A stretch of DNA of 51,786 nt from Methanobrevibacter sp. (GTDB lineage: Archaea; Methanobacteriota; Methanobacteria; Methanobacteriales; Methanobacteriaceae), in the NCBI RefSeq assembly GCF_017447225.1, contig NZ_JAFSNZ010000081.1, forward strand, positions 1 through 51,786. Direction: 5' to 3'. How positions within the stretch are numbered: position 1 is the first letter of the stretch; the number at the start of each line of letters is the position of its first letter. This document shows positions 11,431 through 17,840 of this stretch, piece by piece. A program made the translations under genes and the position numbers. Under the pieces are notes generated by a model. That model saw only the letters and a list, made by a program, of their open reading frames with translations, did not search any database and was not told the origin of the DNA.

Positions 11431-12036
11431 CTATTGATATCTATAGAATTCAACTTGCCAGCTGACGGTTTCATAGTAATCTATAGTAAATGTCTGCGGA
11501 GATGAGGATGAATAAGACAGGGAATTGGATCTTGTTTCAACAGCACTTGTTGAACCCCAATCAACACCTGCAGACTCACCATTAGAACCAGTAACATACA
11601 AATGATTTGTCGCATAGTTCTTAATTGGATAAGCAGACAGTTTAATCATTATTTCACCTGCCGGAACACTAATAGATTGACTACCACTTCCCGAACCGGA
11701 ATAAGAACCAATCAATTCCCAATCCTTTGTTTCACTTTCAGTTTTTGATATGGATTGGGTTGTAGCACCCTGGGAATCACCACTTTCACCAGCTGAAACT
11801 GAAGTATTATCAGAACTTGTGGAAGCCTGAAGCTGTGAATCACCACTCTGCATATTATTTAGTGCAAAATAACCTATAGATCCTGCTAAAATAACAATTA
11901 CTATGATTAATGCAGCTATAATTAATTTAGAGTTTGAACTTCCCTCTTTTGGTGGAACATATTCTAAACTTTGACCGCATTTACTGCAAAATTTAGCAGA
12001 TTCCTTATTTTCAAAACCACAATTATTACATTTCAT
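11431..12036 (-). CDS. Zinc-ribbon protein with single membrane helix and extracellular domain
   Basis: 201 residues from the ATG at 12036, giving MKCNNCG; the frame also has an ATG at 12045. A zinc ribbon (CNNCG...FCSKCG) occupies about residues 1-25. A membrane helix follows at about 41-63, then a Ser/Thr/Gly/Gln-rich linker, then about 90 residues with a beta-rich look (KDWELIGSYSGSGSGSQSI...) and a YETVSWQVEFYRY end. The zinc ribbon should be cytoplasmic and the rest outside. Such ribbon-anchor-sensor proteins are common in Methanobacteriales, but their role is unknown. A TATA-like aaatatataattta lies at about 12081-12094. Confidence 0.75.
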   Translation of the reverse strand: MKCNNCGFENKESAKFCSKCGQSLEYVPPKEGSSNSKLIIAALIIVIVILAGSIGYFALNNMQSGDSQLQASTSSDNTSVSAGESGDSQGATTQSISKTESETKDWELIGSYSGSGSGSQSISVPAGEIMIKLSAYPIKNYATNHLYVTGSNGESAGVDWGSTSAVETRSNSLSYSSSSPQTFTIDYYETVSWQVEFYRYQ

Positions 12037-12045
12037 GAAAATCAT

Positions 12046-12430: not shown

Positions 12431-12715
12431 ATGAGTAAAGAAAATGACGAGCTTTTGAAATTAACGTCTTATGTTCAAATCTCAAAATACAGAGAAAAAA
12501 CATTAAAATCAATTGGCGAAGATGTAAAAATACCTACCAACATCGCAAAGGACAGCGGTATTAGAACTAATCATATTTCAAAAGTACTTAGTGAACTTAA
12601 GAATAAGGAAATTGTAGAATGCATAAATGAAGAAGCTCGTAAAGGAAGACTTTACAGATTAACCGATACTGGAAAAGAAGTTTTAGATACTATTAAAGAT
12701 AAAGAAGAAGATTAA
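12431..12715 (+). CDS. Winged-helix transcriptional regulator
   Basis: 94 residues. The centre (about residues 25-85) reads as a winged helix-turn-helix: a helix with KIPTNIAKDSGI, a recognition helix IRTNHISKVLSELKNKEIV, then a wing ending GRLYRLTDTGKEVLDTI. This is the archaeal MarR/ArsR-like layout. No ligand domain is visible. It overlaps the 3' end of the opposite metallopeptidase-like gene by 4 bp. The target is unknown; the GTACAT/ATGTAC repeat about 80 bp upstream is a candidate autoregulatory site. Confidence 0.8.
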   Translation: MSKENDELLKLTSYVQISKYREKTLKSIGEDVKIPTNIAKDSGIRTNHISKVLSELKNKEIVECINEEARKGRLYRLTDTGKEVLDTIKDKEED

Positions 12716-13695
12716 CTAAAATTTTCAAATTTTTTCTTTATATACTCTACTTCCTCTCTTGCTTCTTTATTATTAAATAAGAAATAGAAGTATGAAACAA
12801 ACCATTCAATAAATATGCTATTTTTCTTATCATCATCCAGAACAGACTTATCGTAACCGTGAATAACATCCCTATTTACATCAGGAGTGTCCTTTCTGAA
12901 TTGAAGTAGAATCAGTTCTCTTAAATTATCATCAATATACTTTTCTAAATTTTCAACAACATCATATGCATATGAATTACCAACCTGAATAAACTGATTC
13001 AACTGTTCAAAATCAATATCTCCTATTTCATGAAGACATTTATTGAAAGAAGAGAAATTCTGATAATCCAATGGAATAAAACGATTTTCTACAGTATGTG
13101 CATAATATTCATTCATTATCTTGATATCCGAAATAGTCAATACAAATTCCACAAAAGCCTTTAGGGCAGGAGATTCCTTAACATTTAAAATGTTAGATAA
13201 GAATCTTACACTTAATTCAAACAATAGAAAGTGAGCCAATTCATGAACAATAGCTCCAATTTGCAGAGAATCCTCTAAACGATCATCAAATAATATGAAA
13301 ACATTAGCACTTTCGCCATGAGCTATACCGCTTGATTTGGGAATGACTGGAGTGAATCTGGTGACTATCTGCAATATCTTTTCTTTAGGAGTGATTCCTG
13401 TAATTTCAACATAATCCAACTTCTTAAAAATTCCCTCCAATATGTCCCTATATTCAATACCTGAAATTTTAGCATTTAACATCAATGCCAAATTACCCTC
13501 AGTGAATAAATCATCAAAATCAGCAATAGCTAAAGGAAAAATCTCATTATGGCATTTATCACAGCAATTACTGGAATCCGAATTTTTATGACCACAATAC
13601 GGACAGATATTTTCCTCAACGAGATAACATCCGCAATGTGTGCAATAATTGTTTTTCTTAAAGTTAAATGTTCCGCAAACATCACATCTTTTCAT
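12712..13695 (-). CDS. Zinc-ribbon protein fused to an HExxH (IrrE/ImmA-like) metallopeptidase domain
   Basis: 327 residues. Two zinc ribbons open the protein: CDVCG...YCTHCG (residues 4-21) and CPYCG...CCDKCH (31-49). At 151-155 HELAH is a gluzincin HExxH motif, preceded by a strand ANVFILFDDRL (130-140). NEYYAHTVENRFIP at 195-208 could supply the third zinc ligand (Glu196). Strand, HExxH and a downstream E-x2-A pattern ending in a proline match the ImmA/IrrE layout. The C-terminal about 110 residues are helical without a motif. It follows the seven-ribbon gene with no gap. Protease activity is inferred; it could be a catalytically competent stand-alone enzyme or a sensor. Confidence 0.7.
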   Translation of the reverse strand: MKRCDVCGTFNFKKNNYCTHCGCYLVEENICPYCGHKNSDSSNCCDKCHNEIFPLAIADFDDLFTEGNLALMLNAKISGIEYRDILEGIFKKLDYVEITGITPKEKILQIVTRFTPVIPKSSGIAHGESANVFILFDDRLEDSLQIGAIVHELAHFLLFELSVRFLSNILNVKESPALKAFVEFVLTISDIKIMNEYYAHTVENRFIPLDYQNFSSFNKCLHEIGDIDFEQLNQFIQVGNSYAYDVVENLEKYIDDNLRELILLQFRKDTPDVNRDVIHGYDKSVLDDDKKNSIFIEWFVSYFYFLFNNKEAREEVEYIKKKFENFS

Positions 13696-14598
13696 TTAAA
13701 CACCATTCAAGAAATTTTTAACAGAATTCACAGTATGTGAAAATGTCTTTTTGCGACTAAGGGTCCTTTTAATATTTTTTCCACAATTCGGACAGAATTC
13801 ACAGCCATAATCGACAATTTTACCGCAGCTGCATACAAGCCTATTTTTTATGCTGCGATCAGGATTTAATCTTTTTCCACATGAAGAACATATTTTTTCC
13901 CCAATAGGATTTCTAGTACCGCAAACACATATTAGTTGAGTAATCTCTTCATTCAAACTATTTCCGCAGTCCACACAAAAATCAGCCACTAGATCATTTA
14001 AAACAGAACAGACACATCGTTTTTTCATTCCGTCAATATTCACATACCTATCTAAAGGAAGACCGCAATTATCACAAAATAGACTATCTTCATCATTTTC
14101 CTTACCACAATTGCAGAAGACTGAATTTTCATATTCCCTGTGGAAATTTATGTCAAAATCATCTTCTTCCTCTTCTTCATGCAATTTACGGCCACACATA
14201 TCGCAGAATTCACTGTCTGGAGAATTATAGGCACCACATTTGCAGAGAATATCTTCTGTAATAAAATCGTTAATGTTGAATTTTGGCTTTTTGGTTCTTT
14301 TAATGAAACGGCCAACACCCTTTTTAATGCGTTTAACCCCACAATGATGGCAGAACTCATTATTGATTTCATTCAAATATCCACAGGAACATATGTCATA
14401 TTTAAAATCAGAACCAATATTAATGGTTGGTGAAAAATCTATATTAAAATTAAAAAAGCCTATATTATGAATTGGGGGAGTGAATATGTAATTATCATTA
14501 CTATCTTCAGAAAGTGTTTTAGCACCGCAATCAGGACAATGCTCATCATTTGGAGCTAATCTCTTTCCACATTCAGGACAATAATTCCAAAACCCCAT
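13696..14598 (-). CDS. Protein with seven tandem zinc ribbons
   Basis: 300 residues. Seven zinc-ribbon units are spread over the whole length, with linkers of 10-50 residues. The first is canonical (YCPECGK...HCPDCGAK). Five of the other six start with a C-x-C-G knuckle instead of C-x2-C-G: ICSCG, LCKCG, FCNCG, ICVCG and VCSCG. The remaining one reads RCVCS. Each is closed by a normal C-x2-C-G. No membrane helix or enzyme domain is present, so this is probably a protein- or nucleic-acid-binding scaffold. It is 11 nt downstream of the DHH gene and directly abuts the metallopeptidase-like gene; the three are probably cotranscribed. Confidence 0.75.
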   Translation of the reverse strand: MGFWNYCPECGKRLAPNDEHCPDCGAKTLSEDSNDNYIFTPPIHNIGFFNFNIDFSPTINIGSDFKYDICSCGYLNEINNEFCHHCGVKRIKKGVGRFIKRTKKPKFNINDFITEDILCKCGAYNSPDSEFCDMCGRKLHEEEEEDDFDINFHREYENSVFCNCGKENDEDSLFCDNCGLPLDRYVNIDGMKKRCVCSVLNDLVADFCVDCGNSLNEEITQLICVCGTRNPIGEKICSSCGKRLNPDRSIKNRLVCSCGKIVDYGCEFCPNCGKNIKRTLSRKKTFSHTVNSVKNFLNGV

Positions 14599-14609
14599 AA
14601 TATCATAAT

Positions 14610-16871
14610 TTATAATTTGGATAAGGATTTAACCTCATTAACTATTTCTGATAATATCTCTTCACCCAATCCCTCAATATATTTTACAGAACCGGCACAT
14701 TCATGTCCTCCACCATCTACACCTGCTGAAGGTACTTTAACGGCTAAATTTGAAACTATATCATTTACATTAAATCCGAACTCTGCATTAACCGCATCAG
14801 TGGCTCTGAATACACCGAAATCAGGGCCATGCCCTAAAGTCACAATTGGTTTATCCTCTCCGATTTCATGCAGCATCCTGTCATGGACAAAACCGCATGT
14901 TTTTCCAGGGGCAGGGAAAGTGAACTTATGAGCATATTTTTCAACATCAATAATATTGAAGTAAATTCCGTTTTCAAACTGTGTGCTTTTAATGTTCGGA
15001 AGCACCGCCTTAAGCTGAGTGTCAATTCTTTTCTCATATTCTTTATATAAAGCATCAATCATCTTATAATGCTTATCGAAATTATCTACCGCCAGAATTG
15101 TGTCCATGATTCCTCTACCATTCATGAATCTTAGGAAATATGATTCAAAGTCTATACATTCTGCAACTTTTGCCAAATGCTCTTTAGTGAAGTCTTTCTC
15201 ATAAGCAAGTTCCAGATATTGGTAAACTTCACCACATTCGGCACGGTCTCCCAATGCAGCAATGGCAGGCAAATGCTGAATCAGCTGCTTAACATCAGGA
15301 TTGATGATGTGAGCAACCTCTGTTGCCAATGCACCTGCAGTCAGCTGTGAGTCTCCTCCGACAAGATACGGATTAACATGAGTATCAACGTATTCATCTA
15401 CAGCAACAGTTGCATTCATAATTTCACCGTCTTCCTCTTCAACTGTCAATAAATCTCCAGGAGAGTGGTGATCGATTACAACAACTTCAATATCATAGAT
15501 TTTGGCCTGCATAAGTGCAACAATATCCTCTTCTGTGGAACCGTTATCCAATAAGACAATTAAAGGTAATTTCTGACCGTGTCTTTCCTGGTCTTCCAAA
15601 GCAAATGATAAATCTTTTACAACATCTTCAAGTTCGTAAAACGGAGCTTTGGATGGAGAACGTTTGAAATAATAGTATTGCGCATCATTGCTTGGATTAA
15701 TTTCTTCAATCAATGGAACAACTGCTTTTTCCATTGCAACTCCAGCACATATTCCGTCAGCGTCATTGTGATGTCTGAGCAAAATTGTTCGCCCGTCAAG
15801 AATTGCCCTTCTGATTTTACGTGCAGCTTCCCTCATCTTAGGTTTAAGTTTGTTTAAAATATCACTTTTGACCAAGAAATCAACATCTTCAGGTTCAGCT
15901 TTCTCATTTAATGCATCGTCAATTAACTTATGTAATTGCTCTTTTTTAGAACCGTCAAGTTTTACCATTGAAGATGACTCGATTTGTGTCTTTCCACCGT
16001 GCTGATTAACGTCACCAATGATTTCAACGGCATCACCTTCAGCAATGTCAGGATATGCCCGGACTCCAGCTTCATCAAAAGCAGCGACTTCAGTAACCCC
16101 GCTTTCATCAGTGATTGTGAAAATTGTCGGACCGGAAGTCTGCTGAACCTGTAGAACCTCACCGTCAATTCGAACCATCTTACCCATCTTGCTTTCCAAA
16201 TTATCGATAACAGTTCTTTTAATAGATTTTGTTAATTTAATGAGCCTGTGATTTCTGACATATGCCGGAGCAAAGTCAATTTTGCCTTCCCTTGACTTGA
16301 TGGATGTGATAAATACAATTACCTCTTCACCTACAGAATATCCTGAGACTTCGCCTCTCATCAATCCCCAGACATTATTGTTCAGGCTGATGAAGGCACC
16401 ATACTTTTCAATTCTTGTGATTTTACCTTTGTATAGCTTATCACGATCCATATCCCTCATTTCACATAAAGGATCCAATACATAGACATCTTTTACTTCA
16501 TTTTCACGGGCACGACGTTTTTCTTCTGCTTCTTTTTTCTCTTTACGTTTTGCTCCGCATTCAGCACAGATATCATATTTTTCATCTAAAGGCTTGCCGC
16601 AGTCACGACAGACATTAACCTGGCCTGTACCTCCACAATATTGGCAATCCTCATAAACTTCAACCTGACCTTTTCCATTACATGCTTCACATGGAATATC
16701 CTGTTCTGCACCTAAATCAAATTTAGCTCTAGCGTTATTATTTACTCCTTTAAAATGATTTCCAACATCAAAAGAATCTTCTTCATAACCTGTTCCTCCA
16801 CAGCTAGAGCATTCCTTGTAATCTACAACAACAGATCCAGAACCATTACACTTTGGACAATTTTTTTTCAA
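14610..16871 (-). CDS. DHH-family (RecJ-like) phosphoesterase with zinc-finger, S1 and OB domains
   Basis: 753 residues from a TTG start at 16871. TTG is chosen because GAGGT lies 7-8 nt upstream and the protein then begins MKKNCPKC; the frame extends to 16919 but would overlap the upstream gene. Domains: DnaJ-type CxxCxGxG knuckles plus a zinc ribbon (about 4-110), an S1 domain (about 145-205), an OB fold (about 225-310) and DHH/DHHA1. DHH motifs: HNDADG (368-373), LLDNGS, IDHH (466-469), and GGGH (about 720) of DHHA1. The combination indicates a single-strand-specific exonuclease or phosphodiesterase related to archaeal RecJ/GAN. The substrate is not determined. Confidence 0.88.
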   Translation of the reverse strand: MKKNCPKCNGSGSVVVDYKECSSCGGTGYEEDSFDVGNHFKGVNNNARAKFDLGAEQDIPCEACNGKGQVEVYEDCQYCGGTGQVNVCRDCGKPLDEKYDICAECGAKRKEKKEAEEKRRARENEVKDVYVLDPLCEMRDMDRDKLYKGKITRIEKYGAFISLNNNVWGLMRGEVSGYSVGEEVIVFITSIKSREGKIDFAPAYVRNHRLIKLTKSIKRTVIDNLESKMGKMVRIDGEVLQVQQTSGPTIFTITDESGVTEVAAFDEAGVRAYPDIAEGDAVEIIGDVNQHGGKTQIESSSMVKLDGSKKEQLHKLIDDALNEKAEPEDVDFLVKSDILNKLKPKMREAARKIRRAILDGRTILLRHHNDADGICAGVAMEKAVVPLIEEINPSNDAQYYYFKRSPSKAPFYELEDVVKDLSFALEDQERHGQKLPLIVLLDNGSTEEDIVALMQAKIYDIEVVVIDHHSPGDLLTVEEEDGEIMNATVAVDEYVDTHVNPYLVGGDSQLTAGALATEVAHIINPDVKQLIQHLPAIAALGDRAECGEVYQYLELAYEKDFTKEHLAKVAECIDFESYFLRFMNGRGIMDTILAVDNFDKHYKMIDALYKEYEKRIDTQLKAVLPNIKSTQFENGIYFNIIDVEKYAHKFTFPAPGKTCGFVHDRMLHEIGEDKPIVTLGHGPDFGVFRATDAVNAEFGFNVNDIVSNLAVKVPSAGVDGGGHECAGSVKYIEGLGEEILSEIVNEVKSLSKL

Positions 16872-16881
16872 TTTAAAAACC

Positions 16882-17382
16882 TCATTTAAATAAATCCGGA
16901 TTATCTTTAACCAAGTCATTTCTGACTTTTTGGAATTCTAAAGCGTCATTCATTAATTCATTAGCTTCATATGCATAACTGTTACCTGTACCATTCTGAT
17001 AGCTTTCAAAATAATCTATTGATTCCAACAGGTAATCCGTAGCGTTCATTTTAAGCTTCAACTCTTCCAACAAAGTATTTACATAACTCTTATAAACATC
17101 ATCAGTAGTTGACGTGAAATTCTCCTTAATGCTGGTCAACTGAGAAATACTTTTATTAAAATTGTTTGACGCCGAAATAGCTTTATTCCTTGATTCATCA
17201 TAATTTTTATCATTTAACAAGTCAACAGCTTCATTATAATCTGAATCTCCCGCAGCAATACTTTCACTGATATCCGGCATGATTTTATTGACAGAGCTTT
17301 CAGTATTATATAAATAAATAACGGAAGCTGAAAAAACAATTAAAATAACTATAAAAATTATTACTTTAGTATAATTTGACAC
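16882..17382 (-). CDS. N-terminally anchored extracytoplasmic helical protein, hypothetical
   Basis: 166 residues. A membrane helix spans about residues 7-25, followed by an extracytoplasmic, mostly helical region with many Asn/Ser/Asp and heptad-like leucines (for example VNTLLEELKLKMNATDYLL). No catalytic motif is present. Its TGA stop lies inside the ribosome-binding site of the DHH gene (10 nt before its TTG), so the two are coupled. The association with a cytoplasmic nuclease is positional only. Confidence 0.7.
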   Translation of the reverse strand: MSNYTKVIIFIVILIVFSASVIYLYNTESSVNKIMPDISESIAAGDSDYNEAVDLLNDKNYDESRNKAISASNNFNKSISQLTSIKENFTSTTDDVYKSYVNTLLEELKLKMNATDYLLESIDYFESYQNGTGNSYAYEANELMNDALEFQKVRNDLVKDNPDLFK

Positions 17383-17440
17383 ATTATACTATCTATAAAA
17401 AGATATTATTAAAAGTTTTTATGAGAAAAAAAGTTAAATA

Positions 17441-17474
17441 AAAAAAGAAAATTTTAAGAAATAAATCTTAAAAT
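17441..17474 (-). terminator. Intrinsic terminator after the superoxide reductase gene
   Basis: A 9-bp perfect stem (ATTTTAAGA at 17451-17459 with TCTTAAAAT at 17466-17474, 6-nt loop) starts right after the stop and is followed on the minus strand by T-rich sequence. It marks the end of the metY-nifS-nifU-superoxide reductase run. Confidence 0.65.
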
Positions 17475-17840
17475 CTATTCGCTGGACCAGAGTCCGTGCA
17501 AGTTACAGAATGCGTATGCAACTATACCATCAGTTGAGTTAACAGTGAAGGTTGCTTCTGCAACATCTCCTGGTTTGAAGCATTTTGCGTATTGTTCAGC
17601 ACCTGCTTCAACAACAACAAACTGAATGTAGTGGTCATCATCCATTGGGTGAGCTGCTTCACCGACTTTTACGGTTACTTTGTCACCGTCGATTTCTACT
17701 ACAGGTTTGTGTTTAGGTGATTTTTCACCTTCAGTTTGAACAGGGAATTCAAACATGTGATCGTTACATACGTTTTCATCGCCTTCAGCTAAAACTTGGA
17801 TAATACTTCCGCATTCGTTACATTTTAATATTTTTGCCAT
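17475..17840 (-). CDS. Superoxide reductase (desulfoferrodoxin-like) with incomplete desulforedoxin site
   Basis: 121 residues from the ATG at 17840, which lies 9 nt after aggag; the frame opens at 17849. The catalytic Fe(His)4Cys site is complete: His44 (KHKP), His64 and His70 (HPMDDDHY), Cys112 and His115 (CNLHGLW). Lys43 before the first His is kept, but the usual Glu of the EKH motif is Pro42. The N-terminal desulforedoxin-like segment has Cys7, Cys10 and Cys25, but the adjacent fourth cysteine (normally CC) is Asn26, so the Fe(Cys)4 centre probably cannot form. It reduces superoxide to peroxide. It lies 48 nt after nifU, before a terminator, so it probably shares that transcript. Confidence 0.9.
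   Translation of the reverse strand: MAKILKCNECGSIIQVLAEGDENVCNDHMFEFPVQTEGEKSPKHKPVVEIDGDKVTVKVGEAAHPMDDDHYIQFVVVEAGAEQYAKCFKPGDVAEATFTVNSTDGIVAYAFCNLHGLWSSE

Follow-up and report, generated by a model that had tools for sequence, protein, structure and literature searches.

A conserved zinc-ribbon array and predicted IrrE/ArdC-like metalloprotease encoded behind the HAN-like nuclease of Methanobrevibacter

Gene organization of the locus

The locus described here lies in a stretch of 51,786 nucleotides (nt), referred to below as the window, which covers positions 1 to 51,786 of contig NZ_JAFSNZ010000081.1 (forward strand) of a Methanobrevibacter sp. genome (G000; assembly GCF_017447225.1; 2.16 Mb in 117 contigs). 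Four genes on its minus strand encode a membrane protein (TM), a HAN-like DHH nuclease (HAN), an array of zinc ribbons (RIB) and a protein with two zinc ribbons and a predicted metalloprotease domain (HEX); a convergent gene encodes a winged-helix protein (WH). The order of the four genes is conserved within the genus, RIB and HEX are inherited together and co-vary, and HEX keeps a conserved active site in a domain predicted to resemble those of IrrE and ArdC. These data suggest that the HAN-RIB-HEX locus encodes an undescribed protease-based response in Methanobrevibacter.

Table 1. Coordinates of the genes and features at the locus (positions in the window; aa, amino acids)
Feature	Position	Strand	Description or basis
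TM	16882-17382	minus	166 aa, GTG start; single N-terminal membrane helix and helical outer part
HAN (HAN-like DHH nuclease)	14610-16871	minus	753 aa, TTG start
RIB	13696-14598	minus	Array of seven zinc ribbons
HEX	12712-13695	minus	Two zinc ribbons and a predicted IrrE/ArdC-like gluzincin domain
HEX N-terminal zinc ribbons (residues 4-48)	13552-13686	minus	No variation at any of the eight Cys across 34 aligned orthologs
HEX HExxH motif (HELAH, residues 151-155), active-site helix	13231-13245	minus	HExxH in 62/62 locus copies
HEX motif E196-x-x-A199 on the glutamate helix, which may supply the third metal ligand	13099-13110	minus	Conservation in the 58-member family
WH, convergent winged-helix protein	12431-12715	plus	Neighbour of the module
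T-rich gap separating TM from the desulfoferrodoxin gene	17383-17474	minus	Sequence

Read along the minus strand, the desulfoferrodoxin gene (ending at 17475) and a T-rich gap are followed by TM, HAN, RIB and HEX, with 10 nt between TM and HAN, 11 nt between HAN and RIB and 0 nt between RIB and HEX. The GAGG ribosome site of HAN shares bases with the TGA stop of TM (ATGAGGTTTTTAAATTG), and HEX, the stop of which lies at 12712, overlaps the convergent WH open reading frame (ORF) by 4 nt. The initial annotation, made from the sequence alone, had described a run of four minus-strand genes with gaps of 0-11 nt, a ribosome site overlapping the upstream stop and a winged-helix gene reaching into the end of the run, and each of these was found. 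The first start in the ORF list for HAN, an ATG at 16919, would overlap TM. The TTG at 16871 appears to fit better, since it agrees with the ribosome site and with the relatives, the best matches of which begin at residue 1 of the 753-aa form. We infer that TM, HAN, RIB and HEX are co-transcribed.

Conservation of the gene order

Conservation was followed at 66 HAN loci of Methanobrevibacter (the window excluded) and at 48 loci of other genera, the latter a hand-picked subset of the HAN-bearing genomes. RIB and then HEX were found after HAN, on the same strand, in 61 of the 62 Methanobrevibacter loci with at least 1.9 kb of downstream sequence, and TM preceded HAN in 59 of the 64 whose sequence reaches 500 bases upstream of it. 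The full TM-HAN-RIB-HEX order, whose scattering in relatives the initial annotation had named as grounds for rejecting its proposal, was present in 58 of the 61 loci covered on both sides. The distance from HAN to RIB was 2-26 nt in 59/63 loci; three of the four longer cases contain an inserted ORF, and in the fourth, gaps in the assembly interrupt the reading frame of HAN. At L075, L078 and L120 an extra ORF of 133-170 aa, encoding a ribbon and a membrane helix, is inserted between HAN and RIB. Wherever both HEX and WH were seen (61/61 loci), WH lies on the strand opposite to HEX and downstream of it. Five genomes yielded no TM at their HAN locus, namely G059, G064, G044, G061 and G096 (L122-L126).

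At the loci of other genera, TM was found within 600 bases upstream of HAN in 37 of 48, and RIB or HEX behind HAN in none of 39. TM-HAN is the older pair, and RIB-HEX is a genus-specific module added behind it; the membrane protein, which occurs with HAN in genera that have no RIB or HEX there, does not belong with the others to the four-part set proposed in the initial annotation. A single gain of RIB-HEX near the base of Methanobrevibacter would fit best. In G059 (L123), the only genuine exception in the genus, RIB and HEX are gone and the WH gene, retained at 89% identity, lies directly after HAN at a distance of 190 nt. In a tree of HAN, built from a thinned set of 36 proteins, G059 stands next to G064 and G044 and within the group that carries RIB/HEX, and the absence of the two genes is therefore a loss. 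Because the other genera and G059 keep HAN without them, HAN does not need RIB/HEX.

An apparent RIB-HEX fusion in G044 (a 615-aa open frame) was rejected as evidence of contact, as its junction is an assembly run of about 80 N. A broken HEX in G061:C83 (L128/L238) was likewise set aside; the contig mirrors itself and is probably an assembly artefact.

The predicted metalloprotease domain of HEX

The two ribbons of HEX occupy residues 4-21 and 31-48. Of 58 HEX relatives, 55-56 share each of the residues His151, Glu152, His155 and Glu196 (56 in the case of Glu196), and 53 share Ala199; at the locus itself HExxH, with the glutamate at position 152 to which the initial annotation had pointed, is intact in 62/62 copies. 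A lack of conservation of these residues was the other outcome that the initial annotation had named as refuting its proposal. The gluzincin signature, as given in PMC7213743, pairs an HExxH helix with a later, glutamate helix that carries (E,H)xx(A,F,T,S,G). Both elements are seen in HEX, HExxH on the active-site helix and E196xxA199 on the glutamate helix. A model of the domain alone, built from the 58 sequences (predicted local distance difference test score, pLDDT, 94.2; predicted template-modelling score, pTM, 0.93), shows three short strands ahead of the helix with HExxH (86-114 in the model); ExxA lies on helix 133-149, the second after it.

In the VIA structure comparison the top match of this model was ArdC (Z 6.1, 3.6 Å, 130 residues), followed by IrrE (5.3 and 5.2), PprI with and without single-stranded DNA (ssDNA; 5.0 each) a regulator of M. 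tuberculosis (4.3) and, lower down, CapP (7t5t; 3.8); other zincins, at Z of about 4 and lower, were not taken as kin. Foldseek placed PprI on top (probability 0.66, E 0.36). An earlier model of full-length HEX (pLDDT 84.7), since superseded, gave nothing below E 0.3 in Foldseek (PDB and viral models), and in VIA reached Z 3.5 at best, with PprI on top.

The HEX profile matched that of 30 M78 proteins of the same order (Methanobacteriales) with 94.1% probability over 80 columns (hhalign), as against no more than 1.1% in 20 column-shuffled controls and 2.0% for 25 M48 proteins of the order, to which no similarity was found. Both the profile and the model comparison support the ImmA/IrrE-like character assigned to the protein at the outset. 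With Pfam M78, six HEX orthologs at this locus score above the cut-off and others below it. By its anatomy HEX is predicted to be an IrrE/ArdC-type metalloprotease, and it is not filed here as a member of M78; its metal would be zinc (or manganese) and its activity proteolytic.

RIB, selection and co-variation

The seven ribbons of RIB are located at residues 7-24, 70-86, 119-135, 162-178, 195-211, 224-240 and 256-272, and six of them are of the form CxC...CxxC. An alignment of 63 sequences revealed a conserved segment outside the ribbons, FTPPIHNIGFFxFxIDFSP. RIB passes the Pfam DZR cut-off (80.0 bits vs 27.3) with five stretches; no helix-turn-helix (HTH) match was found in the Pfam scan.

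The ratio of nonsynonymous to synonymous divergence (dN/dS) in 12 close pairs was 0 to 0.24 across the genes of the locus, indicating purifying selection: 0.01-0.10 for HAN, 0.03-0.15 for RIB (undefined for L117/L118, where dS is zero) and 0.05-0.19 for HEX. The genes are real and constrained. Between L117 and L118, which come from two species, dS was about 0 for RIB and HEX, 0.26 for HAN, 0.64 for TM and 0.07 for WH; as the silent sites of RIB and HEX are nearly identical while HAN and TM differ, the two genes were recently exchanged as a block.

Co-variation was calculated over 57 loci (window included) in which all five genes are near full length, with the HAN distance partialled out. The partial correlation of RIB and HEX was 0.59, and 0 of 2000 permutations were as high. 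Weaker positive values were obtained for TM-RIB (0.28) and TM-WH (0.33), and no co-variation was seen for HEX-WH (-0.41), RIB-WH (-0.02) or TM-HEX (-0.08). Because RIB co-varies with HEX and WH does not, RIB is a better candidate than WH for its partner or substrate.

HAN and TM

HAN consists of a DnaJ-type zinc finger, an S1/OB domain, an OB domain and a DHH domain, with all four nuclease motifs intact and in order (NDADG 369, DHH 467, GDR 541, GGGH 720). It matches NF053577 over positions 2-603 of 612 (E 5.6e-210) and PDB 5yh1 (E 2.9e-141), and its score of 698.9 bits lies below the curated equivalog cut-off of 840 bits; hence it is termed HAN-like. A search of 150 genomes of the order recovered HAN in 144, with all 19 genera represented, and TM homologs in 134; TM matches no Pfam family above the cut-off. 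The closest copy of the locus, in G053:C71, has a HAN that is 99% identical.

The HAN of Thermococcus is described in PMC5717133 as a 3'-5' exonuclease on ssDNA that is stimulated by Hef, with stalled forks as its proposed site of action. The window protein resembles it in matching nearly all of NF053577 as well as 5yh1, and differs in falling below the equivalog cut-off, in having a DnaJ-type zinc finger outside the model and in the partner genes TM, RIB and HEX. As expected for Hef, an ERCC4-domain protein (a 775-aa frame) is encoded in the window genome. At L162-L171 (genus g12, likely Methanosphaera) the HAN matches begin only at residue ~117-129; these proteins, of about 620-665 aa, appear to have no N-terminal DnaJ-type zinc finger.

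The wider HEX family

Members of the HEX family were found in 88 of the 151 genomes of the phylum and in 4 of its 20 genera, and none among viral contigs (248 pattern matches scanned). The loci of HEX relatives were taken from best-match lists and are not a random sample. Single-ribbon relatives (306-332 aa) stand beside a partner with ribbon and SAP domains in 21 of 23 cases, 19 tail to tail and 2 on the same strand; dropped from this count were L128, L177, L180, L181, L226 and L230, which duplicate other entries, and L246, a 322-aa frame at a contig edge without a partner. One such SAP-HEX two-gene module occurs in the window genome (L262:374-2705; G000:C75), and others at L227, L228, L232, L250-L256, L258, L259, L261 and L264-L269; the host genera are Methanobrevibacter, g12, g9 and g6.

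Fusions of HSDR_N, SWI2/SNF2, a double ribbon and HEX, ~1167 aa in length, were found at L231:4508-10167 and L243:4505-10116, each with a gene of ~700 aa after it. A Methylase_S match was found in 2 of the 3 members of this ~700-aa family that were scanned (including that of L243), and the fusion and its neighbour are possibly a restriction-like system with a built-in metalloprotease. Stand-alone ribbon-HEX genes (388-410 aa) precede a gene of the same kind in L242 and L247. All six of the scanned proteins of about 490-505 aa are MrcB_N-HEX fusions, with copies at L263:3896-5413 (in the window genome, G000:C31), L233, L234, L239, L240 and L245. TPR-HEX proteins (L229, L235, L236, L241) lie downstream of Hsp70-like and phosphoesterase-like genes in a repeated order. 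Broken active sites (KN..I, KY..V, KE..H) were seen at L255:6872-7870, L264:3712-5448 and L260:3944-4903; these relatives, two of which adjoin an intact HEX, are possibly pseudoenzymes. The wider family ties IrrE-type proteases to restriction-type DNA recognition, and may indicate a new defence theme in methanogens.

Comparison with known systems

HEX shares its short strands, HExxH helix and glutamate helix with PprI/IrrE of Deinococcus (which is paired with DdrO); it has two ribbons in front and no fused HTH or GAF domain, and its neighbour is a ribbon array rather than an HTH repressor. CapP-CapH of the cyclic oligonucleotide-based antiphage signalling system (CBASS) is likewise an IrrE-type protease adjoining a small partner gene, and CapP is among the VIA matches of HEX; CapH, however, is a transcription factor, whereas RIB has no HTH match, and the HEX run contains no CBASS genes. 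ArdC, the antirestriction protein of plasmid R388, has a gluzincin domain, is the top VIA match and counters type I restriction, and domains of the restriction type are found fused to several of the HEX relatives; unlike ArdC, HEX carries zinc ribbons. With Peptidase M78 (PF06114)/ImmA, the strand and HExxH helix of HEX match the first half of the profile, whereas the second half is unmatched and the window HEX is below the reporting threshold.

PADLOC gave no match for TM, RIB or HEX, and for HAN one at chance level only. The open-licence PMC literature yielded no paper linking Methanobrevibacter with a zinc ribbon and a metalloprotease, or with IrrE, and nothing for ImmA with metallopeptidase or zinc ribbon with archaea, which is no proof of absence from print; papers pairing any of Methanobrevibacter, zinc ribbon and HExxH appeared unrelated by their titles and the beginnings of their abstracts.

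Proposed role and alternative explanations

The explanation that we favour, tentatively, is that RIB-HEX is a module of a DNA-responsive metalloprotease and its ribbon partner, added once behind TM-HAN and read with it as one unit. HEX would be an IrrE/ArdC-type metalloprotease that uses zinc (or manganese), and RIB, as the partner dedicated to it, would most likely be a nucleic-acid-binding adaptor or the substrate that HEX cleaves; the module would have entered its place behind TM-HAN a single time, near the base of Methanobrevibacter, and would be transcribed with that pair. PprI, CapP and ArdC are ssDNA-binding or ssDNA-activated according to PMC10904395 and PMC7213743. By analogy to these proteins, HEX would probably be triggered by ssDNA or DNA damage; DNA would be the most likely trigger because of the link of all three to ssDNA and because HEX relatives are repeatedly joined to DNA-recognition parts. 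The triggering DNA may be of the kind on which HAN acts together with Hef at stalled forks, and a functional link of RIB-HEX to HAN is plausible. For the four-gene run we infer, as did the initial annotation, proteolytic signalling and a role in nucleic-acid stress.

Several findings weigh against this explanation. The VIA Z scores of 5-6 are modest and persuade through their consistency only, and the Foldseek E of 0.36 is weak; masking of the HExxH helix drops the HEX-M78 profile match to 0.3%, and Pfam M78 (PF06114) does not report the window HEX even at an E threshold of 0.1. Ribbons aside, RIB lacks any known DNA-binding fold. The mirror-tree correlation between RIB and HEX could be due to linkage and block recombination instead of contact, and the permutation takes no account of the tree. 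HAN occurs in all 19 genera of the order and RIB/HEX behind it in Methanobrevibacter only, and the two genes evolve several times faster than HAN. This rapid evolution, the block exchange, the conservation of HAN elsewhere without RIB-HEX and the loss of RIB-HEX alone in G059 are also what would be expected under the main rival explanation, by which RIB-HEX has a role of its own (e.g. defence), uses the HAN promoter and has no functional link to HAN, TM or WH. The restriction-like and SAP contexts of HEX relatives away from HAN point the same way, as does the ribbon-membrane ORF that three loci carry as an insertion between HAN and RIB. Such an independent passenger is a possibility to be taken seriously, but the module has kept the same position in 61/62 loci of the genus, and the HAN-RIB gaps have stayed short (2-26 nt in 59/63). 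Positional retention of this kind is stronger than is usual for mobile defence genes.

M78-type proteases usually target an HTH repressor, the gene of which often adjoins their own. PprI-DdrO and CapP-CapH are such protease-repressor pairs, as described in PMC10904395, and WH, the suggested target in the initial annotation, keeps a constant position downstream of HEX (61/61 loci). Cleavage of WH by HEX is nonetheless improbable: WH is convergent and not co-transcribed with HEX, the HEX-WH correlation is -0.41 as compared to 0.59 for RIB, and G059 keeps its WH in the absence of HEX. It is also improbable that HEX is a Spartan-like protease clearing DNA-crosslinked proteins at HAN/Hef forks. The combination of zinc ribbons with HExxH, the link to a fork nuclease and the fact that the best fold match, ArdC, itself lies close to Spartan (DALI Z 6.4 in PMC7213743) would suit such a function, but the third ligand of SprT/Spartan, given there as His, was not found in HEX, which has Glu in 56/58, and SprT is absent among the VIA matches listed, which excludes nothing. 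The nine zinc ribbons of RIB and HEX could likewise point to zinc sensing or storage with a non-proteolytic HExxH; this is the least probable of the alternatives, as the catalytic Glu is kept in 62/62 locus copies and the run contains no zinc-uptake genes.

To our knowledge, archaea have no accepted proteolytic DNA-damage switch of the LexA-like or IrrE-like type. In Methanobrevibacter, a main genus of gut methanogens, the conserved pair of a predicted protease and its partner, encoded together with a nuclease of fork repair, is a concrete and testable candidate for such a switch. In a bolder form of the DNA-responsive explanation, which we consider unlikely, HEX and its relatives would constitute an undescribed protease clan of gut methanogens, joining an IrrE/ArdC domain to swappable DNA-recognition parts (HsdR, MrcB_N, the SAP partner, a specificity subunit or zinc-ribbon arrays). 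The member at the HAN locus, vertically kept and guided by its ribbons, would read the ssDNA of stalled forks with HAN/Hef, cleave RIB or a RIB-bound protein and thereby start a damage response.

Flanking sequences

The T-rich gap upstream of TM likely contains the terminator of the desulfoferrodoxin gene and the start of the TM-HAN-RIB-HEX unit. At L075, a transposase-like ORF lies between HEX and the WH gene. On the far side of WH in the window, a ribbon protein with a single membrane helix is encoded at 11431-12045, between the WH gene and that of RNase P p30, and it stays beside the locus in most of Methanobrevibacter.

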